64,000 nucleotides of DNA from Salinirubellus salinus (GTDB taxonomy: Archaea > Halobacteriota > Halobacteria > Halobacteriales > Haloarculaceae): assembly GCF_025231485.1 (NCBI RefSeq), contig NZ_CP104003.1, forward strand, positions 3,348,001 to 3,412,000. The letters are read 5' to 3'. The position numbers and the translations under genes are program-made. Shown here piece by piece: positions 3,366-37,033 of this stretch. The number at the start of each line of letters is the position of its first letter. Within the stretch, counting starts at the first letter, position 1. The notes under the pieces were generated by a model. The model was given only the letters and a program-made list of their open reading frames with translations, ran no database searches and was not told where the DNA came from.

Positions 3366-3675
3366 GGTGATCGCCGGCGGCTCCGGTGGGGTTCGATGTG
3401 CGGTCGGACGTGCTCGCTTCGCTGCGCCCCCCCCCTGGTTCAAATCCTCCGGCGTGCGGTTGCGGTCACTCCTCGAGCGACACGCAACACGAGCCCGGAG
3501 GGGGACAATCATAAGGGTATCTGTGCCCGAATTTAACCCGTTCTGCCATCATGTAACGTGACGCACAGCCGGACTTTGTCCGCCAAGTCGTCACGGACCA
3601 TGTCCGGCAACCCCCCGCCTTCGGGTCGAACGGGCACCGGACGAGGTCGCAGTGCGCGTGGTTCGAGAACAAACA
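3366..3675. other. Gene-free boundary stretch with left att copy
   Basis: No convincing gene. It holds a run of C and a tRNA T-loop-like string (ggttcaaatc, 3437-3446), the left copy of the 14-bp att repeat (3489-3502), a possible TATA element (cataaggg, about 3510) and small inverted repeats (cggactttgtccg, ggaccatgtcc) ahead of the recombinase gene. The T-loop-like string does not fold into a full T arm because only two stem pairs form. Confidence 0.5.
3489..3502. repeat. Left attachment site (att direct repeat)
   Basis: The 14 bp acgagcccggaggg is identical to 21174-21187, which is the 3' acceptor end of tRNA-Arg plus one flanking base (written on the + strand). A short copy of a tRNA 3' end next to an integrase gene is the standard sign of site-specific integration. 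The two copies enclose about 17.7 kb. Confidence 0.85.
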
Positions 3676-4686
3676 ATGAACCTCGAACCAATCGAACCAG
3701 AACACGCCGTAGAACTGTACCTCGACGACCGCCGCGAGGAGCTCGCCGACCTCACTTACAGTACTCACCGCTCTCGACTCAGCCACTTCATCCAGTGGTG
3801 CGATGAGCGAGACATCGACAACCTGAACGAACTGACCGGGCGGCTGCTCTACGAGTACCGGGTCTGGCGTCGACGAGACGGTAACCTCTCGAAACCCAGC
3901 CTCAAGTCCCAGATGGACACACTCAGAGTATTCATCCGCTGGCTGGAATCCATCGAAGGCGTTGCCCCCGACCTGCATATGAAAGTGCGGGCTGTCACGC
4001 TGACCGCCGAGGAGAACAGTCGTGACGTGCTTCTGACGCCGGCCGAAGCAGACGGCATCCTCGAATACCTCGGGAAGTATAGCTACGCCTCACTCCAACA
4101 CGTTACCATCGCGCTGCTGTGGCACACGATGCTACGGCGCGGGTCCGCCCGAGCCCTCGACCTCTCTGACTACGATGCTGAGGAGCAGTCCATCGCTGTC
4201 CAGCACAGACCCGACTCTGACACCCCGCTCAAGAACGGACACAACGGCGAGCGACTTGTCGCCCTCTCAGACTGGATGTGCGACCTGCTTGACGACTGGA
4301 TAGCGATGCAGAGACCAAACGTCGAAGACGAGTTTGGACGGGAACCCCTACTGGCGACAACCCACGGTAGAATTCATCAGAGTACCATCTCGACCTACGT
4401 GTATCGGCTCTCCCGACCGTGCGTGTACTCTGGCGCGTGTCCACACGACCGCGACATCGACAGCTGCGAAGCCACCGGCCCCGACTCGGCCTCCAAGTGT
4501 CCGTCGAGCGTGTCCTCGCACGCGATTCGTCGTGGGGCGATTACACACCACCTGAACTCGAATGTCCCGGAGAACGTAGTCGGAGGCCGCGCAGATGTCT
4601 CACAGGATGTACTGGAACAGCACTACGACCGTCGGAGCGACCGAGAGAAGATGGAGCAGCGTCGTAAGTTCTTGGACAGTCTCTAG
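3676..4686 (+). CDS. Tyrosine recombinase/integrase of the tRNA-Arg element
   Basis: 336 aa from the ATG at 3676 (a GTG at 3652 is in frame but less likely). The N-terminal SAM-like core-binding domain (residues 8-100) is followed by the catalytic domain: Arg154 in LRRGSARAL, Lys186 in PLKNG, His282-x-x-Arg285 in SHAIRRG, and nucleophile Tyr317 in LEQHYDRR. The usual second His/Trp position reads GGRAD, a departure from the canonical set. A Cys cluster C249-x5-C255-x8-C264-x10-C275 just before HxxR could bind zinc. Being next to attL, it is the likely integrase of this element. A hairpin follows the stop codon. Confidence 0.9.
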   Translation: MNLEPIEPEHAVELYLDDRREELADLTYSTHRSRLSHFIQWCDERDIDNLNELTGRLLYEYRVWRRRDGNLSKPSLKSQMDTLRVFIRWLESIEGVAPDLHMKVRAVTLTAEENSRDVLLTPAEADGILEYLGKYSYASLQHVTIALLWHTMLRRGSARALDLSDYDAEEQSIAVQHRPDSDTPLKNGHNGERLVALSDWMCDLLDDWIAMQRPNVEDEFGREPLLATTHGRIHQSTISTYVYRLSRPCVYSGACPHDRDIDSCEATGPDSASKCPSSVSSHAIRRGAITHHLNSNVPENVVGGRADVSQDVLEQHYDRRSDREKMEQRRKFLDSL

Positions 4687-4718
4687 ATAGCCAGCCGAGA
4701 GCGACTGAGCAGTAAGCG

Positions 4719-4741
4719 CTGTGGCTATGAACGAGCCACAG
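4719..4741 (+). terminator. Hairpin terminator after recombinase gene
   Basis: Perfect 8-bp stem ctgtggct / agccacag with a 7-nt loop, 33 bp after the stop codon, followed by a pyrimidine/T-rich stretch (actactctttt). The shape fits an intrinsic transcription terminator. Archaeal termination often needs only the T run, so the hairpin could instead be a recombinase-related site. Confidence 0.45.
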
Positions 4742-4821
4742 ACTACTCTTTTGGGTTAGCTACTAACCGAATTAGTAGGCGACGGCTCCGTTGAGACCCT
4801 TTGGAATTGATACAACCGGCT

Positions 4822-4851
4822 TGCGAGATATAGAGGGTGTATACAGCACGG
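4822..4851. repeat. Dispersed repeat copy 1 (tattcagca family)
   Basis: Contains tgcgagatatagagggtg followed by the core variant tatacagca (4840-4848) and cgg. It matches copies at 6904-6933 and 36111-36140 over about 28 bp with few changes. It lies 135 bp downstream of the recombinase stop codon. Confidence 0.75.
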
Positions 4852-5004
4852 CTCCGCGCTCCCGGAAGCGACGGGCCATCCTGAATCTCCTGCCGTGTTG
4901 ATTCTCACTGCATAGTCAGTTTCCCGTGAGAAATCATTATACATCTGCATGTCAATCAGGCTATACTCTGGAGAGCGGAAGCGGCCCGCCGCTGGAGGAA
5001 TCTC

Positions 5005-6702
5005 ATGCAGCCAACTCGAACCGGACCAACAGCCGTATCGCCAGCCACCACCCCACGGTCGAGACCCACTCGGCGCTCGGAGGTGACCAAACAGCGAGGC
5101 ACCCGCCTCTTCGTGATCGCGCTCGCCGTCGCGCTCGTCCTCACCCCACTCGCCATGGTCACGCCTGTGGCCGCGCAAGTTGGTAACGCTCCAGACATCG
5201 AATGGGAAACACTGGAGTCAGGAATTTCCTTCTTCGGAGCGGTTGCGGCGACACAGGACGGCGGCGTCGTTACCGTGAGTCAAACCACGACCCGCACAAG
5301 TGATGGACGATTCCTCTATGACGCGCTGGTCGTGAAGTACGCGAGTGACGGGACCGAACTCTGGCGGACCACGCTGTCCGAAAACGACCGGGATATTGTG
5401 TGGGACATCACGGAAACGAGTGACGGAGACATCGTCATCACCGGCTATACAGTCGCTCAAACAGCGGATGGAACCAGTACCCAACTTGATGGCTGGGTCG
5501 TCCGCCTCGACGCGTCCGGAACTGAACTCTGGAGTCGGACGTACACCGCTGATACCACCGCCGAACGATCAGACGGATTCCGTGGGGTGACTGCCACGAG
5601 CGACGGTGGCGTCGTGCTGGCGGGTGTCACTAGAACAGCTACTAACGATGATGATGCGTGGGTGGTCAAACTGGATACATCTGGAGACGTTGTGTGGAGT
5701 ACCACTGCTGGCGGCGAGGGATTTGACCAAGCCGTTGATGTGGAGGCGCTGAGTGACGATAGCGTCGTCTTCTACGGGTCAAAGCAAGTCGAAACGGACT
5801 CGGGACTCTTCCAGACGAAGCCGTGGCTGGTTCGGGTCGATGCGACCGGGAACATCCTCTGGCAACAGACCTATGATTTCCCTCTGGGATTCTTCGCTCC
5901 ACAGCCGTTGGCCGTGACGAGTGACGACCGCCTTGCAGTGCTATCGTCACAAATCGACCAATCGACCTTCAACAGGGACGTGCGGGTCGTGACGTTCGAC
6001 AGTGATGGTGTTGTACAGTGGAGCCAGACTTACGGCGACGACTTCGTTGACTCCGCATTCGATATTGGGAGGTCTATCATCGGAACGAGTGACGGTGGGT
6101 TCGCGTTTACTGGATCTACACCGGAACCGTTGCCGACCAGCTCCTCCGCAGAGCCCGATATGTGGGTCGTCAAACTCGATTCCACTGGAGGCGTCGAATG
6201 GAGTGAAATCTACGGTGACCTGTACAGGGATTCACCGTTTTTCGATGCAGGGTTCTCAATCGCAGAGATGACTGACGGGGGATATGCCGTCAAGGGCCAG
6301 ACCACCACGGAGGAGTCTGGCTTTGAGCCGTGGCTGGTGAAGTTGGAGGCACTCGAGACCACCATCCCGGCCGAGGTTGACGTGCTGCCGGGCAGTGAGG
6401 AGAACCCCGTCGAACTGGACCGCCCCGGACGCCTTCCCGTGGCCATCCTCGGCTCGGCGGAATTCGACGTGACGACTATCGACACGAGTTCGCTCGCCGT
6501 CGAGGGCGTCGCGCCAGTGCGCGTGACCACGGACGACGTGAACGAGGACGGTTACGCCGACCTCGTGCTGTTCGTCGAGGTCGAGACCCTCGTGGATGCG
6601 GGCGTGCTGACCGAATCGACGACGGAGTTGGTCGTGACCGGCGAGCTCACCGACGGGACACCCATCGAGGGAGCTGATTCGGTGACCCCGCTCGTCACGT
6701 AG
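5005..6702 (+). CDS. Secreted seven-bladed beta-propeller protein
   Basis: 565 aa. The start at 5005 is supported by GGAGG six bases upstream. An unusually long N-region precedes a hydrophobic signal segment (LFVIALAVALVLTPLAMVTP) ending in VAAQ, so export is expected. The body has about seven repeats of the pattern [T/L]SDGG-hydrophobic run, with DxWVVKLDxxGxxxW strands, typical of a seven-bladed PQQ/WD-like propeller. The last about 110 residues (IPAEVDVLPGSEENP onward) form a separate domain with VPVAILGSxxFD-like and DVNEDGYADLVL motifs, as seen at the C-terminus of surface proteins. No catalytic site is evident. It may be an adhesion or binding protein of the element. Confidence 0.8.
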   Translation: MQPTRTGPTAVSPATTPRSRPTRRSEVTKQRGTRLFVIALAVALVLTPLAMVTPVAAQVGNAPDIEWETLESGISFFGAVAATQDGGVVTVSQTTTRTSDGRFLYDALVVKYASDGTELWRTTLSENDRDIVWDITETSDGDIVITGYTVAQTADGTSTQLDGWVVRLDASGTELWSRTYTADTTAERSDGFRGVTATSDGGVVLAGVTRTATNDDDAWVVKLDTSGDVVWSTTAGGEGFDQAVDVEALSDDSVVFYGSKQVETDSGLFQTKPWLVRVDATGNILWQQTYDFPLGFFAPQPLAVTSDDRLAVLSSQIDQSTFNRDVRVVTFDSDGVVQWSQTYGDDFVDSAFDIGRSIIGTSDGGFAFTGSTPEPLPTSSSAEPDMWVVKLDSTGGVEWSEIYGDLYRDSPFFDAGFSIAEMTDGGYAVKGQTTTEESGFEPWLVKLEALETTIPAEVDVLPGSEENPVELDRPGRLPVAILGSAEFDVTTIDTSSLAVEGVAPVRVTTDDVNEDGYADLVLFVEVETLVDAGVLTESTTELVVTGELTDGTPIEGADSVTPLVT

Positions 6703-6837
6703 ACTACCTGACGGACACGGAGCTACACGTCTTCCTTATTCGAGCGTCCAATCGGTGCCATCCGGGAAGCCACCGCAATCGGGTGCGTAGTCGATTGTTG
6801 GGGCCCATGGACTGGCCATCACTCAACTGGGGAAGAC

Positions 6838-6867
6838 TGCTGAATATGCGCCCTGTATTCAGCACGG
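6838..6867. repeat. Dispersed repeat copy 2, palindromic form
   Basis: Perfect inverted repeat tgctgaata (6838-6846) / tattcagca (6856-6864) around tgcgccctg, followed by cgg. This copy shows that the core can occur as a full palindrome. Confidence 0.75.
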
Positions 6868-6903
6868 TCGCCGGAACCTGCTCTGATTCTGGCAGAACCA
6901 GCG

Positions 6904-6933
6904 TACGAGATACAGAGGGTGTATTCAGCACGG
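6904..6933. repeat. Dispersed repeat copy 3
   Basis: tacgagatacagagggtg followed by tattcagca (6922-6930) and cgg. The core starts exactly 66 bp after the core of the copy at 6856. Nearly identical to the copies at 4822 and 36111. Confidence 0.8.
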
Positions 6934-7029
6934 GGCGCTGAGTGTGGTTTCCTCGCCCGAGGTCGATAACGCTCGTCTCAACGCCAGTAAGCCGTGAACC
7001 GCTACCATCTCGGCCCACTCTCTGCCGGC

Positions 7030-7857
7030 TCAGGCCATCTCGACGTTCGCGAACTCGAAGCGTGCTCCACCGTCTGTGGCCTCCAGCAACTCGACACGCC
7101 AGCCGTGCGCCTCGGCGATGCGCTCAACGATGGCTAACCCCTGCCCCGTCCCGACACCGCCCGAGTACCCCGTCTCGAATACCGCCTCACGCTCGGATTC
7201 CGAGATGCCAACGCCGTCGTCTTCGACGTAGAACCCACCGTCCGTGGAGCCGACCCTGACCGTGATACCGGAGCCAGCGTGCTCGACCACGTTACAAAAC
7301 AGGTTCTCGAACAGTTCTTGGAGCCGGGTCTTATCCGCCATGAGTGTCCGTGTTGATGTGACCTCCAGCGTCACGTCGCCGGTTGGGACGGCACGCCACG
7401 CCGCTCTCGCCAGTACTGCTATGTCGGCGGGTTCTGGGTCGGCGACCATTCGCCCCTCGCTGGACAGTTCCTGAAGATGGGTGAGCAATTGGTTGGCTCG
7501 GTTGAGGGCTTCGGTAGCGCTGTGGAGATGCGATAGGTCTCCCGTCTCGCGAGCCAGTTCGATGTAGCCACCAGCCACCGAGAGTGGCCCCCGAAGGTCG
7601 TGTGCGATATCCGCATCGAACGTCTGGCTTTGCTCGCTCTGTTGGGATGGTTCGTCAGCGTCACCTCCGAGAGAGATACCAGAGCCGTTGGCCGACAGAA
7701 CGAGTCCACCCGTTCCGTCGTCTTCCGGCTCCGAAAACGGGTCGTCAACGACAGATATCGTCTCGATAGTGACCGCCTCGGGGGTATCCCGTATGAACTC
7801 GCGGATGCGTGCTTCGAGTGTCTCGTCCGTGACGCGGATGATAGTAACGTCGGGCAT
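7030..7857 (-). CDS. Sensor histidine kinase
   Basis: 275 aa starting at the ATG at 7857 (MPDVTIIRV). The N-terminal about 100 residues are a small unrecognised sensor region without membrane segments. The dimerisation/phosphoacceptor helix carries His in DIAHDLRGPLS. The ATPase part has the N box (ELFENLFCNVVEH), G1 (DDGVGIS) and G2 (GVGTGQGLAIV). This is a complete cytoplasmic kinase. No response regulator is adjacent, which is usual in haloarchaea. It autophosphorylates on His with ATP. The signal is unknown. Confidence 0.85.
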   Translation of the reverse strand: MPDVTIIRVTDETLEARIREFIRDTPEAVTIETISVVDDPFSEPEDDGTGGLVLSANGSGISLGGDADEPSQQSEQSQTFDADIAHDLRGPLSVAGGYIELARETGDLSHLHSATEALNRANQLLTHLQELSSEGRMVADPEPADIAVLARAAWRAVPTGDVTLEVTSTRTLMADKTRLQELFENLFCNVVEHAGSGITVRVGSTDGGFYVEDDGVGISESEREAVFETGYSGGVGTGQGLAIVERIAEAHGWRVELLEATDGGARFEFANVEMA

Positions 7858-8060
7858 GGGATGCGTGGGCTGACTGGGGTGTGTTCTCGCATGGCGCCAC
7901 GCGAAGAGAAACGAGGACCAACATCGGCTGCTGGTGCCCCGGTAAGCGGTCCCTGTGCGACCGGGACCGAACTCACTTATTGTCAAATTGACAAGGTGGC
8001 CACCGGGGATAAAACCGTCGCCTGTAGGACTGGCTGGGACACTCCTGCGTAGGATACACT

Positions 8061-8080
8061 CGCGCTATGTATTCAGCACG
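8061..8080. repeat. Dispersed repeat copy 4
   Basis: cgcgctatg followed by tattcagca (8070-8078) and cg. The right half of the repeat is intact while the left half has diverged. Confidence 0.65.
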
Positions 8081-8124
8081 CTCGTAGAAACGTCACCAGT
8101 CTCTGTCAGAAGTCCCGTGCAACA

Positions 8125-8149
8125 CTTAGAGGCTGAGTTCAGCACGAGG
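8125..8149. repeat. Dispersed repeat copy 5, diverged
   Basis: cttagaggctg followed by the core variant agttcagca (8136-8144) and cgagg. The core is 66 bp after the previous copy. Confidence 0.6.
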
Positions 8150-8256
8150 TGATGGTGTGTTACTCGTTCAGATTACGGCATCTCTGTGTGGCGTAGTTGA
8201 CGCAACCGTCGAGAATTCGCCAGAATGCTTTTGCGCGGCGCATACAGGGGTGAGGT

Positions 8257-8499
8257 ATGGAGCGCCATCGCCGGGAAACGATTGCGACAATCGCTGTCGC
8301 CTCGCTCTTTCTCGGTACTGGATTGATTTTGTATGGGGTTGTCGCCGTCGAATGTACAAGTCCAGCGATAGAGGGACGCTCGGTGACCTACTGTTCATCG
8401 AATACGCCGGTTTTGCTCCTTGGGCTCTTGCTGGTCGCTAGTGGTGTTGGAGGGGTGTACCGGTACGCGCCGTTGGAGACGTTTCTTGAGGACTCTTGA
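8257..8499 (+). CDS. Small membrane protein, two transmembrane helices
   Basis: 80 aa from the ATG at 8257, preceded by a purine-rich ggggtgag that could pair with 16S rRNA. Two hydrophobic helices (about residues 9-30 and 51-70) are joined by a loop containing two Cys (ECTSPAIEG, TYCSSN). The length and layout fit small haloarchaeal integral membrane proteins. I do not recognise the family. The stop codon overlaps the first of three degenerate tandem repeats. Confidence 0.65.
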   Translation: MERHRRETIATIAVASLFLGTGLILYGVVAVECTSPAIEGRSVTYCSSNTPVLLLGLLLVASGVGGVYRYAPLETFLEDS

Positions 8500-8647
8500 C
8501 CGAACGAGCCGCGCCTGCATCGACCGCCCCAATCGGCTCGTAAGTGGCTCTCGCTCGTGGCCGAATCGCGCACTGTATCAATCACGCCAATCGGGTTGGT
8601 TCTGACCTCCTGCTCGTGACCGACTCGCGCCCTCTATTCAGCACGGG
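8493..8647. repeat. Three degenerate tandem units ending in a perfect repeat copy
   Basis: Units start at 8493 (ctcttgaccgaac), 8554 (ctcgtggccgaatcgcgc) and 8613 (ctcgtgaccgactcgcgc), spaced 61 and 59 bp. Only the last continues into the intact core tattcagca (8635-8643) and cggg. It lies 47 bp from the 3' end of the second recombinase gene (which ends at 8694, minus strand). Confidence 0.7.
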
Positions 8648-8693
8648 TAAAGAAACCCCTCAACACTTGATGATTTCAATACGAGCCTGACAC

Positions 8694-9878
8694 TCAAACA
8701 GTTGCGGCGGGAGCTGCCCCCTCGTCGCCATCGGACCCGTCATCCGGGGAATCCTCGGCAGATGTCTCCCCGTATGTGGGCTTGTTGTTTTGTGAGCGGC
8801 GTTCGTGCCGTCCAGTCAACTTCTGCTCTTTCGTGGCTCGGTTGTAGTGCTTCTCCATCACGTCAATTGAGACATCACACTCGTCGCTGATGTCGTGGAG
8901 GGCTGTCCCAACAGTCGCTTCGTGCGTAATGTAACCCCGACGAACCGGGTGCGGCGAGCGGCTTTCAGGACACTTCGACGCCTTTGCGTTGTCTATGGCT
9001 TCGCAAGTTGCCGGTTTGCGACCAATGGGGCACTCCCCTGAGACAACACACGGGCGAGTCCACATGTAACTGTACTTTCGGATGGTAGAGCCACTGATTC
9101 GACCATGAGATGTCGTGATGAGCGGGTCCCGACCGTGCTCGTCCTTAACCTTCGTCCGGTTCTTATCCCTGTAGTCGCGTATCAGGCTGACACCTTTCTC
9201 GGAGAGTGCAACATACCGCTCTCCCTCTTTATCGTTTTTAAGCGGCGTGCCCTCCTCCGGTCGATGGTTGAACTCCAACCGTGGCGGCTCACTACTGAAG
9301 TTCACGTCACAGAGGTCCAAGGCACGGACATCTCCGAGTCGACCTCCCGATAACGCAATCAAGGCCATCACCACATGCTCTCTGCTCGCGTAGTGGTATT
9401 GTTCAAGATATTCGAGTATCTCAACCGCTCGTTCGGGCTCAAGTATCGTGCTACGTGCATCACCATCGTCTTTCAGCCGAAGTTTCGATATCACCTCGGG
9501 GAAGCCCTCAGCCACGTGCCCTTCCCGTTCACAGTACTGTAAGAACGTTTTAACCCGCTTCATCTGGGTGTTGACCGACGTGATGTCCAGCTCATCAACC
9601 CGAACTGGGGCCTCATAGCGCCGCCAGTTTCGATACTGCTTCAAACTCTCGTAAGTCAGCCCTGCCGTCGTTTGTACTCCGACCTCGGCGCACCAACGGC
9701 TGAAGAAGCCCAATGAGCTTCGGTGGTCGTTTACTGACCGGTAGCCTTCCTCGCTTCGAGCGGTGAGGAACTCTTCTACCGCTGAGTCAATGTGCTTGGG
9801 CTCCAGACCAGTGGCCCGGAACCAGATTCGACGTGCCCACTCTCCGAGCGGGCCGTGTGCGCTACTGCGTTTGACCAT
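8694..9878 (-). CDS. Second tyrosine recombinase of the element
   Basis: 394 aa from the ATG at 9878 (MVKRSSAHG). A TATA box 30 bp upstream supports a leaderless start, and the open frame further upstream is not coding-like. The core-binding domain covers about residues 30-125. Catalytic residues: Arg180 in SGGRLGDVRAL, Lys214 in PLKND, His310-x-x-Arg313 in SPHPVRRG, Tyr345 in MEKHYNRA. It shares with the first recombinase a Cys cluster of identical spacing, C277-x5-C283-x8-C292-x10-C303. The C-terminal tail is acidic. Whether it acts on the att sites or on the dispersed repeats is unknown. Confidence 0.9.
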   Translation of the reverse strand: MVKRSSAHGPLGEWARRIWFRATGLEPKHIDSAVEEFLTARSEEGYRSVNDHRSSLGFFSRWCAEVGVQTTAGLTYESLKQYRNWRRYEAPVRVDELDITSVNTQMKRVKTFLQYCEREGHVAEGFPEVISKLRLKDDGDARSTILEPERAVEILEYLEQYHYASREHVVMALIALSGGRLGDVRALDLCDVNFSSEPPRLEFNHRPEEGTPLKNDKEGERYVALSEKGVSLIRDYRDKNRTKVKDEHGRDPLITTSHGRISGSTIRKYSYMWTRPCVVSGECPIGRKPATCEAIDNAKASKCPESRSPHPVRRGYITHEATVGTALHDISDECDVSIDVMEKHYNRATKEQKLTGRHERRSQNNKPTYGETSAEDSPDDGSDGDEGAAPAATV

Positions 9879-10207
9879 ACCGCAACTGGGGCGAGCTGCG
9901 TAAATATACCTTCGTGTTGAAGTGTACATATAAGCAGTAGTATGGTCCACATACAATATTTTGTCCAATTTAGTGGGCTTAGTAGTGGTGTTTCCATACA
10001 ATGGCCAATCTAAGGTGGTGTGCGGTCTGAGGAGGCGATGCAGAACCACTGGCCGAAGAATGCTCCAGCTGTGTGTAGTACTGCGGCTTGCCCCGGAGCA
10101 CTCACTTGCTCCTAACAGTGCGTATAAAGTAGTAATATATTGACTAGACAACATCACCGAATTACCGAAATCAGAACAGTTAGGAACGCTAAACCCCTAT
10201 CTCATAC
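9879..10207. other. AT-rich divergent intergenic region
   Basis: Upstream of the recombinase (minus) and of the small ORF at 10208 (plus). It contains several TATA-like strings (tatattta at 9901-9908 on the minus strand; gtataaagta near 10120). No gene or dispersed repeat is seen. Confidence 0.5.
9901..9908 (-). promoter_or_regulatory. TATA box of second recombinase
   Basis: tatattta on the minus strand, 30 bp upstream of the ATG at 9878. This is the spacing expected for a leaderless haloarchaeal transcript and helps fix the start codon. Confidence 0.6.
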
Positions 10208-10411
10208 ATGGTTCTAGTTGTCGATGATGAGGAAAAGAGATGCGTATACGAGTCTAATAGCCCAGCAGTCCGCATCCAGTGTGGGTCGACAGCAGTCGAA
10301 GTAATCGGACGCGAAACCGACGACCTTCGGACAGTCGTCCACGCCGCGCATAACGAGTTCAAATGGCTGCGTGACCAGCAGCGGGCCCGTATTTTTGAGA
10401 AGCACCGGTAA
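10208..10411 (+). CDS. Small hypothetical protein
   Basis: 67 aa, acidic N-terminus (MVLVVDDEEKR), mixed alpha/beta character, no known motif. Codon use in this frame (many C/G third positions) is better than in the overlapping antisense frame, which supports coding on the plus strand. Function unknown. It could be a regulator of the neighbouring recombinase, but nothing in the sequence shows that. Confidence 0.45.
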   Translation: MVLVVDDEEKRCVYESNSPAVRIQCGSTAVEVIGRETDDLRTVVHAAHNEFKWLRDQQRARIFEKHR

Positions 10412-10524
10412 ATTAGCCGAACCGGTTAGTCGAGCCTGCCTGTTCAAAACGAGTGTAGTGCCAGAGTTTACTGTCTCTGTTTCAAGACTGTTATCTTTGA
10501 TAATATGTCGAACTTGTGTACATA

Positions 10525-10531
10525 TTTATTA
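10525..10531 (+). promoter_or_regulatory. TATA box of lipoprotein gene
   Basis: tttatta 29 bp before the GTG at 10554. Supports a leaderless transcript starting at that GTG. Confidence 0.55.
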
Positions 10532-10553
10532 TCCAACAATCTGATATTGGTAC

Positions 10554-11156
10554 GTGAAAGGAATAGACCGGCGTCAGTTGCTCACAGTAGCAGGTGTCTC
10601 TATCGTGACCGGATTGGCAGGCTGCCTCGGCGGAGGAGAAGACGAAGCAGCACCAGAAGCATCCGCGGAACCAACCCCGAACAGGGATTCATCAGGGGCA
10701 GGTACTTCGACAGAGGCCTCAGTCAATCAAACACCAACGGCTACGCCGAACAGTAGTGGGTTCGTTAATGAGATTCCAACTCCGGCCCCCGGTGAAGTAT
10801 ATACGCGGACAGGAATCGAATCCAGTGTTGATACGTCCTGTACTGGAAATTTTGACGAGTTTGATTCTCAACTTGCGCGAGTCTCGTCCAAGCCTCAGTT
10901 GGTGATGCTCGCGTACGTCTCTGCGCCAGCCAACTCCGTTGAGCTATCAGACATCGAGGAGTCGTACGATGATGAGGCGAACACGTTTGACCTCCTCCTG
11001 AACTTTGCTGTAGATGAGAGTGCCGACACGTGTACCACTACTCACGAATTTGTGGCCATCTACGCGTTTGACAAAGACATTAGTGGAATGGTGGGCACAC
11101 TCAGTATGAGCGTGAACGATGGCGCACCTGAGCAGTACGTGGAAACGACCATGTAA
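10554..11156 (+). CDS. Tat-exported lipoprotein, unknown function
   Basis: 200 aa with a GTG start. The N-terminus has a twin-Arg motif (DRRQLLTV), a hydrophobic stretch and the lipobox LAGC, followed by a Gly/acidic segment and a Thr/Pro/Ser-rich linker (residues 25-75). This is the standard plan of a haloarchaeal Tat lipoprotein anchored at the outer face of the membrane. The mature domain (about residues 80-200) has two Cys (DTSCTGNF, DTCTTTHE) and beta-rich pattern, but I do not recognise a fold. No transporter genes are adjacent, so a substrate-binding role is not supported. Confidence 0.8.
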   Translation: MKGIDRRQLLTVAGVSIVTGLAGCLGGGEDEAAPEASAEPTPNRDSSGAGTSTEASVNQTPTATPNSSGFVNEIPTPAPGEVYTRTGIESSVDTSCTGNFDEFDSQLARVSSKPQLVMLAYVSAPANSVELSDIEESYDDEANTFDLLLNFAVDESADTCTTTHEFVAIYAFDKDISGMVGTLSMSVNDGAPEQYVETTM

Positions 11157-11463
11157 CCCAATTCCGTCTCCTCCTACCCTGCGATTGGTTCTTGGGTATT
11201 CGCTCCGTGAGCGTAAGTTGTGCTTTAGCTAGACACTCGTCGTCTACCCTCCTCGTCCCTGAGAATACAAAAGGCCGAGTAGCTCCGTTACACTACACTA
11301 CTCTCCACAAAACATACCCGTCGCTCCGAATACTAGTTCGATGTGGGTGTATAAATATATTGCCACAACACGAGTGTAACCAACTACTCGCTAAACCCGC
11401 TTGTACACACTCTGCGGTCGTGTGGCTTGACAAAAAACGAGCCGCCCGCTAGACGACTATCGT
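11157..11463. other. Gene-free stretch
   Basis: Convergent intergenic region between the lipoprotein and the coiled-coil operon. No convincing gene, repeat or RNA is seen. Confidence 0.45.
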
Positions 11464-12063
11464 CTACTCTTCGTCCAGTGAAGCCGACTCAAGTTCACGG
11501 TTGATACGCTCTTGCAGCTGCTCACGGCTCCAGACCATCTCGTCATAGTATTCAGACAGGATTATTAGTCGGTTACGACCGTCTTTGCTCTTGTCGCGCC
11601 GTGCCTTGCCATCGCTCAACTCCACGAAGGCGTCAAACGCTCTTACAATCTGCTTGTTCGATATCTGAATATCGTCCCTGTGCCGAGCTTGACGCTCAGC
11701 ACGCTGGATGACTGCTTTAAGACCGTTCTCACCCATTTTAATCCCGTGGCCCATTTCAGTCTTCGTCCCTCCTCCCTGCTCGAACAACTGGGCGATGAGA
11801 TACGCTCGTGAGTTACTCGTCCCGGGCTCTGGTTCATCGTCAATACCGCACAGCATACGCTCCAGCCGGCTTAATTTTGACTCGATACCAATACTCGAAT
11901 TCAAAGCCCTGTTCTCTAATGTGTTGATTCGCTTACGGTTCTGTGCTATTTGCTGAAGGGCGCTATCACGCACATCTCTCAGCTCATTTGATAGCTCCTC
12001 CAGCTCGGACTCCAATTCCGAGACTCGCGCTTTGAGGCCGCTCATTGACTCGCTCTCACTCAT
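11464..12063 (-). CDS. Coiled-coil plus helix-turn-helix-like protein
   Basis: 199 aa from the ATG at 12063. A long coiled coil (about residues 8-60, heptads such as LKARVSELESELEELSNEL) is followed by a basic/aromatic C-terminal domain with winged-helix character (RAYLIAQLFEQGG ... IKMGENGLKAVIQRAERQ). The start overlaps the end of the upstream winged-helix gene, suggesting translational coupling. Three overlapping genes of this type suggest a DNA-binding complex, perhaps for copy control or repression in the element. I cannot name the family. Confidence 0.7.
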   Translation of the reverse strand: MSESESMSGLKARVSELESELEELSNELRDVRDSALQQIAQNRKRINTLENRALNSSIGIESKLSRLERMLCGIDDEPEPGTSNSRAYLIAQLFEQGGGTKTEMGHGIKMGENGLKAVIQRAERQARHRDDIQISNKQIVRAFDAFVELSDGKARRDKSKDGRNRLIILSEYYDEMVWSREQLQERINRELESASLDEE

Positions 12064-12427
12064 CGACATCACCCAGCGGCTCGTCGGCGTAGCACTCGAT
12101 GGCCTCACGTGGCATCATTACTGGCTGACTGTCCATCCACAGTAGGTCTGCCAGCGTCCGGCCCAGCCAGTACACCGACGCGTCGGGACCTGACCGGACA
12201 ACCCAATCCCGCTGTTCGAGGTCGTACAAGGCGCTCCGTGCTGTTACCCAGCCGACCTCCTTTTGCAATTCCCGCACGGTTATTCGACCGCGATTCTGTA
12301 CCTGTCCGACCGCTACGCGCGTTGCGTCATTGTGAGCTCTATTGCTCATACAGTCCGCCAACCATGCATCCGAGTATATGGCTTTGTCAAGGCCAGACAG
12401 CAACCCGAATCTGTGCGAACGCGTCAT
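12056..12427 (-). CDS. Winged-helix DNA-binding protein
   Basis: 123 aa, starting at 12427 with an ATGA overlap with the upstream stop codon. A MarR-like winged helix spans about residues 35-95 (RGRITVRELQKEVGWVTARSALYDLEQRDWVV). The wing is followed by a short tail. An internal ATG at 12349 (MSNRAHND) is an alternative start but would lose the coupling. Probably a DNA-binding partner of the flanking coiled-coil proteins. Confidence 0.7.
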   Translation of the reverse strand: MTRSHRFGLLSGLDKAIYSDAWLADCMSNRAHNDATRVAVGQVQNRGRITVRELQKEVGWVTARSALYDLEQRDWVVRSGPDASVYWLGRTLADLLWMDSQPVMMPREAIECYADEPLGDVDE

Positions 12428-13035
12428 TGGTAGAAGTCTTCGCGGAGGTTGATGCCCTCACTGTAGCGCGATTCAACGTGGTCGTACACGTCGCCCATGT
12501 ACTCGATAGAGACGCCCAGCTCCTCCAGCACAACCCGGAGCATCGCGACTTCAAAGTACAGTTCTTGGACGATGAAATCTGAGAGCAGGTCGTACTCTTC
12601 GAGGTGCTCGGACTGTCTCTCGGCGAGCTGGTCGAACCGACCCCGGAGGCGATACAGCTCCATACTGAGTTCCTCTATCTGCTCCCGGTCGAGCACAACC
12701 TCGGTAGGCCCCTCGTCTTCTGCGTCGTAGAGGAACCCGTACTGCATCGCTTCGCGTGCGTACTCGGTCAAATCGAGGACTTTTGGAGCTGTACTGAAGC
12801 GTGTGTTCTCGTCGTAGCCGACGACCTCGACGAGCCCAGCTCGTGTTAAGATTCCATCCGCCCGGACTCGGTTTTCAATCAGGTGCTTTTCGAGTCCTGT
12901 TTCGCGCCGAAGCACATGCGAGTTTATCGGTCCTCTGACCGCGAGCGCTCGTAGTATCGATAGTGAGTACTCGTCGTACATCGAGTTCGTCAACTGGCTC
13001 GGTTCCATCCCGTCTGTGTCAGTGAGATTGACCAT
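12424..13035 (-). CDS. Winged-helix plus coiled-coil protein
   Basis: 203 aa from the ATG at 13035 (MVNLTDTDG). The N-terminal winged helix (YSLSILRALAVRGPINSHVLRRETGL) is followed by a coiled coil rich in Glu/Leu (residues 120-160). The frame stays open upstream, but that extension is Gly/Arg/His-rich and not coding-like. First gene of a three-gene overlapping operon on the minus strand, downstream of the Zn-ribbon gene. Likely a DNA-binding regulator or partition-like protein. No functional proof. Confidence 0.7.
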   Translation of the reverse strand: MVNLTDTDGMEPSQLTNSMYDEYSLSILRALAVRGPINSHVLRRETGLEKHLIENRVRADGILTRAGLVEVVGYDENTRFSTAPKVLDLTEYAREAMQYGFLYDAEDEGPTEVVLDREQIEELSMELYRLRGRFDQLAERQSEHLEEYDLLSDFIVQELYFEVAMLRVVLEELGVSIEYMGDVYDHVESRYSEGINLREDFYQ

Positions 13036-13241
13036 ATGTACCCGAGCGCAGACTGACTGCTTTGGTGCTGTGGCGACACCCGTGGCAGCCTCGTGGCGGC
13101 CCTGTTCAAGCAATCCGGGTGCACAGTCGACAACAGCGTGATGGCGGCCTCTACGACCCCTCTCTATGAGGGACCCCACTCAATCCCTCTCCCCGAACGT
13201 TCATATCGAGAGTTACCGACTCGAACCCAGTGACCCGGAAC

Positions 13242-13586
13242 CTACGCACTAGGGTATCGCTCGTCCCCACCAGTTGCGTCAAGATACGGGCTGACGATGA
13301 GCCACGAATGTCTGTCAGAAGTCGCGCCGCACTCGTGACACGCAGCTTCGATACGCCCTATCCCGGGGATTACCTGTAGGCGCACGTAATGCGGCAGGTC
13401 ACACGATGGACAGCTGAGCCACTCTCTGTGCGGAAACTCCTCGATACCTCCGGAGTCGGTGCGACTACACGCTAAACACTGGTACGTCTCCACCCCATCC
13501 CCAATGGCCTGTCCCGGCGTGAGTGATATCTTGATATCGGCAGTTTCCTCGCAGTCTGGGCATCTTACCCACTCCTCGGTAGTCAT
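13242..13586 (-). CDS. Zinc-ribbon protein
   Basis: 114 aa from the ATG at 13586 (MTTEEWVR). Four CxxC knuckles (CPDC, CLAC, CPSC, CHEC) arranged as two pairs predict two zinc ribbons. There is no other recognised domain. It starts 59 bp after the end of the protease gene on the same strand. Zinc ribbons of this kind bind nucleic acids or proteins. Its job here is unknown. Confidence 0.7.
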   Translation of the reverse strand: MTTEEWVRCPDCEETADIKISLTPGQAIGDGVETYQCLACSRTDSGGIEEFPHREWLSCPSCDLPHYVRLQVIPGIGRIEAACHECGATSDRHSWLIVSPYLDATGGDERYPSA

Positions 13587-13644
13587 GCGGTTAGTTAGGG
13601 GTCGAGAAGCCAATGTGTTTCGAGCCCCTGTCAACGAGTCTAAC

Positions 13645-14424
13645 TCACCGGAGTCGCCTCAACAACTCTGCGCGAAAGTATCCGAGACGCTGCGGATTCG
13701 CCACTCCCATTTTTTCGGCGACGTTCGCTGGAACCTCTTCATTCGAGACGTGGACCCCAACAAGTCCCTCACCGAGGACCGGGGAACCGCTGAGACCCGA
13801 GTAGCCACCGGCTGCCTCAAGGTCCAGACCAATACCTGCACTTATTCCGAAATCGTCCATCCCTCTCAGACTATTTTCGAACGGCACTATCCGTGGACCG
13901 TCTATCCCCTCTCGGTACGTACTGACCGCGTATTTGGTAACCTCGGGAAACGATGCTCCATCGAATCCGATGAGCATGAGCTCCTCGCCCTCCGTCTCGG
14001 GGGTGCCGATGTCGTCAATGGTCCATATACGATAGTCGTATGCAGAAGGGTCGAAATCAACTCTGAGCGCGACAACGTCGGTGTCCACAGCATTCAGAGT
14101 ACTATCAAGCCGGTCGTCTACGCTGAGGTTCTCACAATGCCATCCGTCATCTGCCCTGAGGTAGACATCAACTTCGGAAAATCGGTCTCCTAATGAGTAC
14201 CTGAGAATCCGGTTGCCGTACGGGGTCTTCACCTCAACTACGGTCGGCCGTAGATTGTGCCGTGCCGTGATGAGGTATTTGCCTGAACCAGATTCAAAAA
14301 AGAACCCGCTCGCACGCATAGACTGCCCGCAGACGACTGGACAGCTCACCTTTGGGTCATGTCTCGGTCGAATGGGGTCTGGCTGTGTACGCTCTGAAGC
14401 TGTTCCGTCGTTATTCACGCTCAT
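13645..14424 (-). CDS. Trypsin-like serine protease
   Basis: 259 aa. The chymotrypsin-fold triad is visible: His56 in LITARHN, Asp116 in DTDVVALR and Ser212 in GLSGSPVLG. Cys residues near the N-terminus (SCPVVCGQ) are unusual. No signal peptide or membrane segment, so the protease should act inside the cell. Small intracellular trypsin-like domains occur in microbial defence loci as activated effectors, but that link is inference here. It is divergent from the 539-aa protein gene, sharing a 291-bp promoter region. A TATA-like gatatatt lies about 32 bp upstream. Confidence 0.8.
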   Translation of the reverse strand: MSVNNDGTASERTQPDPIRPRHDPKVSCPVVCGQSMRASGFFFESGSGKYLITARHNLRPTVVEVKTPYGNRILRYSLGDRFSEVDVYLRADDGWHCENLSVDDRLDSTLNAVDTDVVALRVDFDPSAYDYRIWTIDDIGTPETEGEELMLIGFDGASFPEVTKYAVSTYREGIDGPRIVPFENSLRGMDDFGISAGIGLDLEAAGGYSGLSGSPVLGEGLVGVHVSNEEVPANVAEKMGVANPQRLGYFRAELLRRLR

Positions 14425-14715
14425 CTCCGCATAACTGTATGCTTGGTGAATATATCAGTTTTATTTGTATGCTAATACCACTAGTGGTCGAGTGAACGAC
14501 TCCCCTCACGGTGAAATGACAATTAAAAATAAAATGGTCCATTCCGGTGGTTTCCCAGATGAGAGAGGAAATTCGATACTGATGTACGATTAAATGGTCT
14601 ACCTGTTGATGTCTTGTGATTCTTATTAGTGATTGCCGCAACGGTTCGCTTGGGTGCCGGGGCGTCCCGCACGCTTTTGACGATTCGTTGTAAATTCCCG
14701 TTGTGACAAACCGGG

Positions 14716-16335
14716 ATGAAGCAAGAGCATCTGGTTGAGGAGGAATTCGACCCTGTCTTCTTCTACTACAAGGAGATACAATCTGAGAGTCTCAACAGCT
14801 GGACAATTGACAGCGCCGAGCGCGTCCGGAACATCTACGATGTCATCGAGGGGCTTGACCGTCAGACCTCCGTTCATCCCGTCGATGAACTCGATATCGA
14901 CCAAAACCCCCGGATGTTTGCGGACAATCTACTGGAGAACTATCCCGACCACGAAGAGGCCTTCTGCACTTCCCTAATCAACGACTTCAGCAGCAGTATG
15001 AAGACGCGTGCACGCGAGGAGGGGAAGTACGCCGTCCTCGTCCTTTACGAAGATTCTCTCGTTCTGTGCCACACCGACTCCGAAGAGAAGACCATCACCA
15101 AAGACGCGGAAGTCCTCGAACGGTTGCTGGACACCGACAACGTCGACAAATACGCTCGGTTCCGCCAGAGTGAGGATACAACCGAGGTGTTACATTTCGA
15201 GCGTAGCTCGTCGAAATCGTTCGCTGAGTTTCTCGGCCTCAACCCGGAGGAAATCGCGTACGAGGAAGCGGGTGACATCAAAATTTTCACCGAGATAGAC
15301 GGGTCAACGGCCCGGTTCGAGTTTACTCAGGACGAATTTGAAGAAAAATTCATCACAGGCGACGACCATCGGCTGCTCACCGAGATACTCGAAACGCCGA
15401 ACGACCAGTACCCAGTGAACCACATCAAGATGGGGCGGCGGCGATACGACACCGTCGACGAGTTTGAACAGCAGTTCTATGCACTCTACTACGACCTCAA
15501 CACGCTGAAGAGTCAGTACAAGACCATCGCTGAATCGATGACTCCCCACACGACGACCGTCGTGGACCACGCAGACAAGGTCACGACTGGCGGACCAAAC
15601 GGGCCGAAAAAGGTCGTGAAGGGTAATGACTCCGAATTCACCGTCGTCTTCGCCGACAAGAACATCGAACTTTCCGCCAAGTGGCGGCTACAGCTTTCGA
15701 AGAAACTCCGGGCTGGAGAGACGGCTCAATTACACCACGTCGGGAATGATTTCACCGAGGAACCGGTACAGGTGGGCCCGTTCGAGGTCTACAACCCCCT
15801 CGATATTGATGCGGAGTATCTGAACCGTCTCTACAGCGTCACGCAGGAAGCCGGGACGGGAGACCAGCTCTCGAATATCATCTTCTGTGTTATGTTCCAT
15901 ACTCTCTCCGAGTGGTGCTCAGGCCCGATTGGCCACTTCTTCGGACAGATGACTAGCCGCTTCGAAGACGAACTGAGTGCAGAAGGGATGATTCTGCGTG
16001 ACGAGGACCGTTTGATGGAGCTCAAGGGACGAGAATGGCTGGCTGACGTGGACGACGATGACGACATCGCCACGAAAATCTCCGGAGAGATTCAATCAGA
16101 GTCCAAGCTGCTGCTCGTTGGGGTCGAAGAAGAAGAACAGCGGATTCGTCCCCTCTCTCGGAATAAATGGGACTCGGAGCGGAACGGTCGTATCCGTGAC
16201 TCCGTTCGGGACATGAACGGACACCATGAGTCAATCCAGCTGTCTTCGCTGCAGCTGGGCAATGGCGAGTGTTTGCTGTTCGTGTACTCTGTTCGTGGTG
16301 ACCAGTCGTTTAATCTGGATATGGCGGCACCCTAA
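14716..16335 (+). CDS. Unrecognised 539-aa protein, first gene of the defence-like cassette
   Basis: A soluble, acidic protein with no transmembrane helix, Walker motif or obvious nuclease/methylase motif. The N-terminal part (residues 1-160) contains helices and a strand-rich patch (EEGKYAVLVLYEDSLVLCHTD). The middle (about 180-330) is mixed. The C-terminal half contains FFGQMTSRFEDEL and an Asp run near residue 450. A weak TATA-like tgtaaat lies about 26 bp upstream of the ATG. It is followed in the same direction by the SH3-like, RM and nuclease genes. I do not recognise the family. Location suggests a defence role as sensor or effector, which is inference only. Confidence 0.8.
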   Translation: MKQEHLVEEEFDPVFFYYKEIQSESLNSWTIDSAERVRNIYDVIEGLDRQTSVHPVDELDIDQNPRMFADNLLENYPDHEEAFCTSLINDFSSSMKTRAREEGKYAVLVLYEDSLVLCHTDSEEKTITKDAEVLERLLDTDNVDKYARFRQSEDTTEVLHFERSSSKSFAEFLGLNPEEIAYEEAGDIKIFTEIDGSTARFEFTQDEFEEKFITGDDHRLLTEILETPNDQYPVNHIKMGRRRYDTVDEFEQQFYALYYDLNTLKSQYKTIAESMTPHTTTVVDHADKVTTGGPNGPKKVVKGNDSEFTVVFADKNIELSAKWRLQLSKKLRAGETAQLHHVGNDFTEEPVQVGPFEVYNPLDIDAEYLNRLYSVTQEAGTGDQLSNIIFCVMFHTLSEWCSGPIGHFFGQMTSRFEDELSAEGMILRDEDRLMELKGREWLADVDDDDDIATKISGEIQSESKLLLVGVEEEEQRIRPLSRNKWDSERNGRIRDSVRDMNGHHESIQLSSLQLGNGECLLFVYSVRGDQSFNLDMAAP

Positions 16336-16395
16336 GCTAGTATGGCATACTCCGATGCCCGTAGAGTCATTCTGTAGCCCGGGTTGCTGAATAAT

Positions 16396-16620
16396 ATGGT
16401 CAGAAGGTTCACCGAAGGCGACCGTGTTCGGCTCGACATACCTGACGAAACCGACCCCGACCACGACCGACTTCACGGCGCGACTGGTACGATTACAAGC
16501 ATCACAGAAGACGACGCTGCCGACTATTCGGGTGATTCCCGCGACAATTATCGATTTGCGGTGGAGCTTGATACCGGTGCAAGCGTGACTGTCCGGTGGC
16601 GAGACCTCCGGCCTATCTGA
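16396..16620 (+). CDS. Small SH3/KOW-like protein
   Basis: 74 aa from the ATG at 16396 (MVRRFTEGDRVRLDIPDE). The pattern GDRVRLDIP ... HGATGTITSI ... YRFAVELDTGASVTVRWRDLRP is a five-strand SH3-like barrel of the KOW/YopX-like kind. Such domains often bind nucleic acid or protein partners. It sits 60 bp after the 539-aa protein and 71 bp before the RM gene, in the same direction, so all may be cotranscribed. Confidence 0.7.
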   Translation: MVRRFTEGDRVRLDIPDETDPDHDRLHGATGTITSITEDDAADYSGDSRDNYRFAVELDTGASVTVRWRDLRPI

Positions 16621-16691
16621 AGTTCTCGGGCCCCAACCGGGCGTCAGAAAAGTACAACTGAGAGGCGATACATGAACGTGACACTTGTGCT

Positions 16692-19613: not shown

Positions 19614-20636
19614 ATGACTAATGTCTATCTCATCCCTGTTGGAGACAACTGGATTGACCACTTCGAACGAACGGTCGAACAACCGCTGACTATCGGGGAC
19701 AGCGATGCTCCTGCGGAGCTTGACGATTTTCAAGAGGTTCGAATCTGGGCAACTACGGAGAGTTCCAAGAAAGAGTCTGCCTACGAGGCGATGCGCTCTG
19801 GCGACCTCCTGATGTTCTATCGTCAAGGTGAATTCTTCGCTGCTGGCCGAGTCGGGCGCACGTTCCGGAGCTCAGCAGCTGGTGACTGGATATGGGATAA
19901 CAGCGAAAGCAGCTTCATATTCACCGTTACTGATTACGAGCCCATCTCGATTAGCAGAGACCAGCTGTGGGATGTTCTCGGGTACAGTAGCGGCTACTTC
20001 GTACGTGGTTTCTCTCGGGTTTCAGACGACGCCCTCGATACGCTTCGACAGCAATACCCCTCCGTTGAGGTCGCGTATCAAGAGCTGAAAGATGGTTCCG
20101 AGGATACCGGCGGCGGTGAAGAGGAAACAGGGGAAGATGATGTCCGAGAGCATGTTGAGATTCAGTGGAGCCTCATTCAACTGGGTCTGATGCATGACTA
20201 CGATGTCTACGTGGCTAAGAACGACCAGTCCGAGACGTACCAGAATGAGACTTTAGGAGAGGATTGCATCGAGAATCTTCCTCTAACAGGATTCAGCGCG
20301 GCGGCACGCAGCATCATCGAGTACGTAGATGTCATCTGGCTTGATGGCGAGTACATCGTGAAGATGTTCGAAGTAGAGAGCACGACCAGCATCTATAGCG
20401 GGATTCTCAGGATGACTGATTTCATCGTCAAAGTCCCGAACCTCGCTGTCGATATGTATATCGTCGCCGCAGAAGACGACGAGGCACTGGTTCGGAAACA
20501 AATAGACCGCCCAACGTTTCAGCACATCTTGGAGCCTGCCAAATATTCCTCGTTGAATTACCTGTCGTTCGAACGTGTCCGCGAACGATTCGACCTAGTG
20601 CAACAGGCGGGCCCACTGAAAACCGTCTTCGAATAA
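19614..20636 (+). CDS. EVE-like domain fused to PD-(D/E)XK nuclease
   Basis: 340 aa, starting one base after the RM gene stop. Residues 1-150 look like a PUA/EVE fold (VYLIPVGDNWIDHF, GDLLMFYRQGEFFAAGRV, FIFTVTDYEPISI); EVE domains bind modified bases. After an acidic linker (160-178), residues 180-300 resemble a nuclease core: Glu182, Asp239 in EYVDVIWLDG and Glu253-x-Glu255 in FEVESTTSIYSG. The usual Lys is replaced by Glu, so activity needs testing. The fusion suggests cleavage of DNA with particular modified bases, either foreign modifications or in coordination with the adjacent methylase. Family assignment is by motif only. Confidence 0.75.
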   Translation: MTNVYLIPVGDNWIDHFERTVEQPLTIGDSDAPAELDDFQEVRIWATTESSKKESAYEAMRSGDLLMFYRQGEFFAAGRVGRTFRSSAAGDWIWDNSESSFIFTVTDYEPISISRDQLWDVLGYSSGYFVRGFSRVSDDALDTLRQQYPSVEVAYQELKDGSEDTGGGEEETGEDDVREHVEIQWSLIQLGLMHDYDVYVAKNDQSETYQNETLGEDCIENLPLTGFSAAARSIIEYVDVIWLDGEYIVKMFEVESTTSIYSGILRMTDFIVKVPNLAVDMYIVAAEDDEALVRKQIDRPTFQHILEPAKYSSLNYLSFERVRERFDLVQQAGPLKTVFE

Positions 20637-20676
20637 CCGTCTTGTCGAGTGAACTGCCGACGCCGTTGGCATGTTG

Positions 20677-20916
20677 TTACGCTTTCTTTCTGATATCCAC
20701 TATCTCGCCCTCCGGCTCGTACTCCATCTCTGCCGCCTCGCTGAGTGACTGTCCCTCCTCAAGTTCTCCTGAGAAGGTACTCCTGACCCACCGCTGAAGT
20801 TCCTCATCGAATGGCTTCGGTAAGTCTGGACGATGCTCTGTGACGACACCAAAAACCTCTGTCCCACCGCTCTCTGCGCGGTCACAGACTACATCGATGC
20901 TGACGAGCCGGGTCAT
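20677..20916 (-). CDS. Small acidic hypothetical protein
   Basis: 79 aa on the minus strand, converging with the EVE-nuclease gene. Beta-strand start (MTRLVSIDVVCDR) and an acidic middle (FSGELEEGQSLSEAAEMEYEPEGEIVDI). Codon third positions look coding-like. No recognised domain. The last gene of the element before the tRNA. Confidence 0.55.
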   Translation of the reverse strand: MTRLVSIDVVCDRAESGGTEVFGVVTEHRPDLPKPFDEELQRWVRSTFSGELEEGQSLSEAAEMEYEPEGEIVDIRKKA

Positions 20917-21096
20917 TATTTCCTATGACTCCCTGTTCTGGCGTCAAATCTTCGATGAAGGGGGCTGTTGAGGATGACAGATACCTCGACGCTCACAACT
21001 CTATTTGAGCTGAACCACACTACGTGTATAAGTCAAATGACGCTGTAGTTCCACCTAACCACGCGACGCAAGCGACCACCGTGATGTAACAGGACG

Positions 21097-21175
21097 AGTT
21101 CAGAACGCTGCTCGGTAGACATCTTATATACAATGTACTGCCGTCTATTGGTTCTGAACTGTCACGCAGCGTGAC
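21097..21175. repeat. Nested inverted repeats at the right att end
   Basis: A perfect 10-bp inverted repeat, agttcagaac (21097-21106) and gttctgaact (21151-21160), encloses an AT-rich 44 bp. Immediately after it is a 7+1+7 palindrome, gtcacgc-a-gcgtgac (21161-21175), whose last two bases overlap the att repeat. The layout is reminiscent of recombinase arm and core binding sites. The inner palindrome could alternatively be a terminator for the tRNA. Confidence 0.6.
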
Positions 21176-21187
21176 GAGCCCGGAGGG
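21174..21187. repeat. Right attachment site (att direct repeat) in tRNA-Arg
   Basis: acgagcccggaggg, identical to 3489-3502. Apart from its first base it is the 3' acceptor strand, discriminator base and start of the T stem of tRNA-Arg read on the + strand. Confidence 0.85.
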
Positions 21188-21247
21188 ATTTGAACCCCCG
21201 ACAACCAGGTCCGGAACCTGGCACTCTGTCCACTGAGCTACGGGCCC
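21175..21247 (-). tRNA. tRNA-Arg(CCG)
   Basis: 73 nt on the minus strand. The acceptor stem GGGCCCG pairs with CGGGCTC (one G-U pair), with discriminator G. The anticodon loop reads TTCCGGA with CCG as anticodon, and the T loop is TTCAAAT. CCA is not encoded. The gene stays intact after integration because the element brought a replacement 3' end. Confidence 0.95.
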
Positions 21248-21318
21248 TCACCCGAGATACCGCCGAGTCGGTTTTGTGTCTGTCGGTCTCCGCCTCGGCG
21301 GGGGTCGCGCCGGTCGTC

Positions 21319-36513: not shown

Positions 36514-36608
36514 ACACAGTGCTCGGCATACCGGTCTGGCGCCCATTTAATGTGCCCGTACCGCCGCTGCCGACAAACTGTCAATGTCGCTAATATACGG
36601 CCAACTAC

Positions 36609-36785: not shown

Positions 36786-37033
36786 TAACCGATAGAATCT
36801 GACCCCGGCATAGGATTTCAGTAGCATCGTCTGCCCTGAAAGACGACGCTTCCTCCTCACGACCTCGGTATCCCAGTTGGATGATGCTACATTCAACCAT
36901 CATCGGCTAACACACCTATCCGATTGCCGAAGACACTACTCCTTCTCGCTACGACCCCCCGGTGAACGACTGGCTATTCTCACCCCAAATCTTCCAAACT
37001 GCGTTTCTATCCGGGACTTAGGGTGTCTAAACG

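Follow-up and report, generated by a model that had tools for sequence, protein, structure and literature searches.

Gene-shuffling systems comparable to the locus described here are known from bacteria. In Acinetobacter, plasmid dif modules with their pdif sites are moved by XerC and XerD (PMC13141974, PMC6449649), and an insertion sequence of the IS1202 family targets the pdif sites (PMC10132070). Integrons have been reported from archaea, in a study whose text does not mention Halobacteria (PMC9668308). Haloarchaea exchange genes heavily and hold many accessory genes without a known vehicle. Here we describe two short sites, A and B, found in the window, a 64,000-nucleotide stretch of the Salinirubellus salinus genome, and in related haloarchaea. 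We propose, with a probability of about 0.7, that A and B are boundary sites of haloarchaeal mobile modules, which would move by site-specific recombination and, as blocks, by IS5-type transposition.

The original prediction had drawn attention to dispersed tattcagca repeats in the window. These repeats are real: TATTCAGCA is present in 7 copies, against 0.03 expected from shuffles. They delimit an array of genes and a second, single-cassette element, whose features are as follows.

3652-4686, forward strand: integrase 1, a tyrosine recombinase (Pfam PF02899/PF00589, over cut-off)
4784-4796, forward strand: left terminal inverted repeat, GGCTCCGTTGAGA (2 mismatches to GGCTCTGTTGAAA)
4820-4848, forward strand: site B, left end of the array (score 38 of a maximum of 45)
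5005-6702, forward strand: cassette 1, a secreted beta-propeller-like repeat protein (start at 5005 or 5083)
6838-6866, forward strand: site A of junction 1
6867-6901, forward strand: linker of junction 1, conserved (alignment)
6902-6930, forward strand: site B of junction 1
7030-7986, reverse strand: cassette 2, a sensor histidine kinase with HisKA and HATPase_c (Pfam; blastn)
8052-8080, forward strand: site A of junction 2
8081-8115, forward strand: linker of junction 2, conserved (alignment)
8116-8144, forward strand: site B of junction 2
8257-8499, forward strand: cassette 3, a small protein of 80 aa, likely in the membrane (judged from sequence)
8558-8586, forward strand: degenerate extra A site, from a 59-bp tandem duplication of the right end (score 26)
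8617-8645, forward strand: site A, right end of the array (score 43.5, the maximum)
8674-8687, forward strand: right terminal inverted repeat, degenerate, TTTCAATACGAGCC (sequence)
8694-9878, reverse strand: integrase 2, a tyrosine recombinase (PF00589 below cut-off; PHROG integrase)
36109-36137, forward strand: site B of the single-cassette element (score 36)
36304-36513, forward strand: single cassette, an ORF of 69 aa (no family found)
36609-36787, forward strand: site A of the single-cassette element, split by a 141-bp inverted-repeat element (sequence)

A gap of 97 bp separates the end of integrase 1 from the array's left end, and the two integrases converge on the array from outside. Beside the single-cassette element lies a gene for a TnpB/Cas12f-like protein (PF07282, 33790-35082). 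Two variable islands, at 4000-22000 and 34000-38000, have a GC content of 0.51-0.61 compared to about 0.70 around them; the first ends near a tRNA-Arg at 21175.

Read in register, every copy of tattcagca is part of one of two site types, each a 29-bp dyad: A, TGACCGACTCGCGCCCTCTATTCAGCACG, and B, CGTGCGAGATACAGAGGGTGTATTCAGCA. The two kinds of motif that had been listed are distinct site types rather than variants of a single site, and they are placed in the order A then B. In both, arms reading GTGNNNNA...TNNNNCAC enclose a centre of 5-7 bp, which is CCCTC-like in A (CGCCCTC) and GAGGG-like in B (GAGGGTG), so that the centres point in opposite directions. As the two centres are near reverse complements, polarity alternates along an array; judged by their arms, A and B resemble direct repeats. 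The linker between them is 35 bp long and has two conserved blocks, approximately GAAACCTACTC and CTGTCAG.

The sites extend well beyond the window. A search of the whole genome found TATTCAGCA clustered on the second contig as well as in several parts of the chromosome, and a sequence-only element model of 96 positions gave 57 matches in the same genome (E<=1e-3). A position-weight scan of the fetched DNA returned 304 sites at a score of at least 20, compared to 4 in reversed DNA; sites in relatives were scored with a model whose training set came from this genome. As originally claimed, the sites are intergenic and non-coding: only 1 of 291 fell within a called gene, although the regions are 68% coding (genes were called by a simple codon-usage method). 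Dyads of 29 bp with arms of about 12 bp also suit serine resolvases, and this, together with the position of the sites between genes, favours reading them as serine-recombinase sites, or as a DNA-bending regulator or terminator with cassette exchange incidental. We regard this reading as very unlikely. The sites vary over a 5-7-bp centre, which would fit tyrosine enzymes better than a 2-bp overlap, and a regulator leaves the exchange of modules described below unexplained.

The spacing of the sites is fixed. Both 66-bp pairs that had been reported for the window (6856/6922 and 8070/8136) are exact, and a count over 67 fetched array regions bears out a general spacing preference: measured between TATTCAGCA motifs, 60 of 68 A-to-B pairs are 66 bp apart, which corresponds to exactly 64 bp from the start of A to the start of B. 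The repeats at 8516, 8576 and 8635, which are 59-60 bp apart and had been grouped with these pairs, belong elsewhere. They derive from a degenerate local tandem duplication of the A end, with copies at 8558-8586 and 8617-8645 and a weak copy at 8516; no other 59-bp A-A pair was seen in the array regions examined.

Counted over 67 array regions from this genome and its relatives, the arrays share a simple order, B-gene-(A-linker-B-gene)n-A. Among close pairs of sites, 68 of 78 were A followed by B on one strand, and the polarity of the centres alternated across 72 of 75 junctions and across 103 of 146 longer intervals. The median cassette is about 780 bp long. Cassette contents are diverse, with the best ORFs (n=66) matching 85 different Pfam families that include histidine kinases, short-chain dehydrogenases, hydrolases, transporters and many unknowns. 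The system is widespread: the element model matched 69 of 97 related haloarchaeal genomes (E<=1e-3), and among public plasmids left ends were found on 102 and right ends on 135. On NZ_CP083668.1, an annotated plasmid of Haloprofundus halobius, about ten junctions follow one another, and several are separated by annotated genes. Spread by phages was rejected, as neither phage records nor one exact scan of viral contigs gave a match, and so was a defence island, since few of the 66 cassette genes matched defence families.

Arrays with one gene per cassette and inverted-repeat junctions invite comparison with an archaeal integron, in which A-linker-B would form an attC-like single-strand fold acted on by integrases 1 and 2. 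The presence of an integrase at both ends of the window array, and of one beside the left end at locus L017 and on a plasmid of the halophilic archaeon DL31, fits this reading. The tests of folding go against it. RNAalifold predicted 0 pairs and no consensus fold, covariation within the inverted repeats was 0.097 compared to 0.090 in shuffled controls, and 3 of 10 single strands folded clearly better than shuffles while 7 of 10 did not. With neither consensus pairs nor covariation, an attC-like fold was rejected. Genes within cassettes showed no preferred orientation (36 of 66), and an integrase is rarely found near the sites; neither integrase of the window comes close to any NCBIfam cut-off. 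We therefore consider an integron the least probable of the explanations weighed here. The original prediction had taken the fixed spacing to indicate either bound proteins or a folded unit; a DNA unit bound by protein probably accounts for it, and the folded unit was not supported by the results above. Nor was a small RNA supported.

Arrays and single cassettes alike end in inverted terminal repeats of the sequence GGCTCTGTTGAAA. With at most 1 mismatch, this sequence occurs at only ten places in the genome, most of which are the ends of such elements. Exact 8-bp target duplications flank the elements at eight loci of the first set (L011, L060, L067, L097, L098, L099, L136 and L139), which range from single cassettes to a four-cassette array, and further 8-bp duplications were found in the second set, for example at L142, L153, L211, L225, L240 and L256. 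For candidate end pairs, 9 of 16 had duplications identical at 7-8 of 8 positions, compared to 0.6 in shuffled pairs. The array of the window itself has no matching 8-bp duplication.

Full insertion sequences with the same ends occur in other haloarchaea and encode a 273-aa transposase of the IS5 family (NF033579, E=7.5e-64). Elements with these ends often have the transposase together with a passenger gene, and others have a cargo gene and no transposase. The transposase was absent from the A/B elements examined. Conversely, the same-end insertion sequences examined had no A/B sites, and thus the A/B system is a distinct layer. An IS6-family origin of the terminal repeats was rejected, since the genome has no IS6 transposase and the same-end elements carry an IS5 transposase. 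Three units with IS5-type ends and 8-bp duplications (L151 2217-4242, L245 3937-4608 and L260 681-2851) have single cargo genes, no transposase and no A/B sites at those ends; judged from sequence, they encode an isomerase-like enzyme, an acetyltransferase-like protein and a desuccinylase-like enzyme, respectively.

In this genome the only relative of the 273-aa transposase is 36% identical and belongs to a different insertion element, which lies inside the centre of a B site at C2:140.7 kb with a 9-bp duplication. The 141-bp element of the window (36627-36767), with ends GCCTTGTTTAGACGC, similarly interrupts the centre of an A site and lies between copies of the 9-bp target duplication CGCGCCCTC at 36618-36626 and 36768-36776. 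The duplication is exact at C2:140.7 kb and at 36.6 kb of the window, and 7 of 9 positions agree at a third insertion into a site centre, at L059. These insertions suggest that an insertion sequence targets the A/B sites, represented by the 141-bp element in the window and by a full copy with an IS5-like transposase at C2:140.7 kb.

Cassettes and linkers have been exchanged with breakpoints in the sites. The histidine-kinase cassette of the window (6906-8080) is 97% identical over 1175 bp to a cassette of the second-contig array L011 (7938-9111), and the identity starts in B and stops inside the centre of A, which reads TATG in one copy and CCTC in the other. To the left, one copy is preceded by a linker and the other by a terminal repeat; to the right, the linkers differ as well as the centres. 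In genome G044, a single linker is 98% identical in two arrays that have unrelated cassettes on both sides of it, and on both sides the identity ends in a site centre, that of A or that of B. L011 and L013 have another linker in common. Over all array regions, shared segments ended at most 20 bp from a site centre in both copies in 7 of 22 cases, compared to 0.04 expected, an excess that is still large although the end points are not fully independent and the statistic is somewhat flattering because conserved sites pull alignment ends towards themselves. On this sequence evidence, modules appear to have been exchanged by crossovers inside the sites, the trace that site-specific recombination would leave. 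No excised circle and no polymorphic array within one strain was seen, which weighs against our main reading, as do the missing 8-bp duplication of the window array and the want of a recombinase tied to the arrays.

Some of these exchanges could be explained by homologous recombination between the junctions, which are about 95 bp long, and this counts against our main reading. Homologous recombination is ubiquitous, the terminal repeats with their 8-bp duplications are proven, and the arrays are linked to no recombinase; hence A and B might be nothing but subterminal repeats of IS5-type cargo transposons, with arrays arising by nested transposition and homologous recombination without a dedicated enzyme. 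We consider this unlikely. Junctions have neither a terminal repeat nor a target duplication, yet keep their 64-bp spacing in 60 of 68 pairs. In one exchange a linker moved by itself, both of its edges lying in site centres. Furthermore, many same-end cargo units, like the full insertion sequences examined, are without A/B sites.

Which enzyme would act on A and B? The original prediction had tied the repeats to neighbouring recombinases. Its recombination theme stands, but the general tie does not: across 12 genomes, a tyrosine recombinase of any kind lay within 5 kb of 5 of 49 clusters, compared to 1.6 by chance. Taken as a whole, that earlier reading of the repeats is thus partly supported. 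Integrases of the window's type are ubiquitous in haloarchaea (116 of 145 genomes), where they often lie next to tRNA-like 3' ends, and most of these relatives have no A/B sites nearby. The array-rich genome G060 has no integrase of this type, while other tyrosine recombinases are present. We therefore rejected the window's type as the dedicated recombinase. Some arrays (L012, L014 and L066) contain short integrase-like genes, which were rejected as the general recombinase since they occur in few loci only.

Three unrelated loci, the DL31 plasmid among them, have an integrase gene of the window's type that points at the array and stops some 90-120 bp short of the left terminal repeat, on its outer side (window 3652-4686, L017 7438-8427 and L100 3851-5029). 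This arrangement may reflect chance, a preferred landing place or a platform. At L066 (3784-6236, genome G044), a frameshifted short integrase lies between two B sites in inverted orientation. Each B site leads into a cassette and then an A site, and a single pair of terminal repeats encloses the whole, which is possibly a two-sided platform. Haloferax volcanii has twelve Xer-like genes, whose role in chromosome resolution was left undetermined (PMC7776575). We infer that a host Xer-like protein acting in trans is the best candidate recombinase for A and B.

We propose that the modules move at two levels. At the first, one gene or a few would have a B site on one side and an A site on the other, with neighbouring cassettes joined by the 35-bp linker into the fixed A-linker-B junction. 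A and B would be tyrosine-recombinase cores with arms of about 12 bp and a centre of 5-7 bp. A recombinase, most likely a tyrosine enzyme (Xer-like) supplied in trans, would exchange strands in the centres, whose sequence would restrict which sites can pair. Where two equal sites recombine, a cassette would be excised together with its linker, presumably as a circle, or inserted, and arrays would grow as cassettes and linkers were swapped, excised and re-inserted as modules. At the second level, IS5-family terminal repeats would frame a cassette or a whole array, and the block would move by transposition, using transposase from full insertion sequences elsewhere. Such traffic probably continues today and presumably benefits the host. 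A wider reading, which we advance tentatively and rate a little below an even chance, is that of a new kind of gene capture across the whole class of haloarchaea, in which A and B sites in alternation would let the host's own Xer-like recombinase assemble cassette arrays, and these would spread by IS5-type transposition and play the part that integrons have in bacteria.

We found no description of the A/B system in the open full-text literature; subscription papers lay outside the search, and priority is therefore unproven. A review of archaeal tyrosine recombinases makes no mention of cassettes (PMC8371274), and papers on archaeal integrons, dark-matter islands and Haloquadratum mobile elements do not describe the system (PMC9668308, PMC4158269, PMC3119063). 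It is apparently an undescribed counterpart of the bacterial gene-shuffling systems. A site pair found in most of the haloarchaeal genomes searched would explain part of their gene traffic, and a simple rule for cassette borders would allow cassette genes to be listed, among them kinases, hydrolases, dehydrogenases, transporters and unknowns. The many orphan Xer-like recombinases of haloarchaea would gain a testable job.

How do A/B arrays compare with known systems? They share terminal inverted repeats and 8-bp duplications with IS5-family insertion sequences that carry passenger genes and with haloarchaeal MITEs, including the existence of elements that have no transposase and are moved in trans, such as the MITEs of Haloquadratum (PMC3119063). 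As IS5-family transposons, A/B elements have the ends and the duplications expected, but not their own transposase, and they differ in having internal A/B sites and multi-cassette arrays. With integrons, including those of archaea (PMC9668308), they have in common arrays of single-gene cassettes and recombination elements of about 95 bp, and most A/B clusters resemble CALINs in being without a nearby integrase. In contrast to integrons, they have two site types and transposon ends, and they show neither an attC fold nor a bias in gene orientation. As the fold, the orientation of genes and an adjacent integrase are all wanting, A/B arrays are not integrons.

A/B arrays also share features with dif modules. 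In both, dyad sites (about 28 bp there, 29 bp here) with two arms and a short centre lie between genes, polarity alternates, and modules change place as whole units, with the crossovers falling in the sites. Both include gene-less modules and varied cargo genes, and an insertion sequence targets the sites, of the IS1202 family in the one case and apparently an IS5-like element in the other. A/B arrays differ in being archaeal, in their own site sequence (a GTGC...GCAC dyad), in the conserved 35-bp linker that forms every second module, and in having IS5-type terminal repeats, with 8-bp duplications, as their frame. They also occur on chromosomes as well as plasmids, and their recombinase is putative. 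By analogy, and without claiming membership, A/B arrays appear to follow the logic of dif modules in the form of the sites, their alternation and the exchange of modules. Gene shuffling by dif modules would then extend to a second domain of life.
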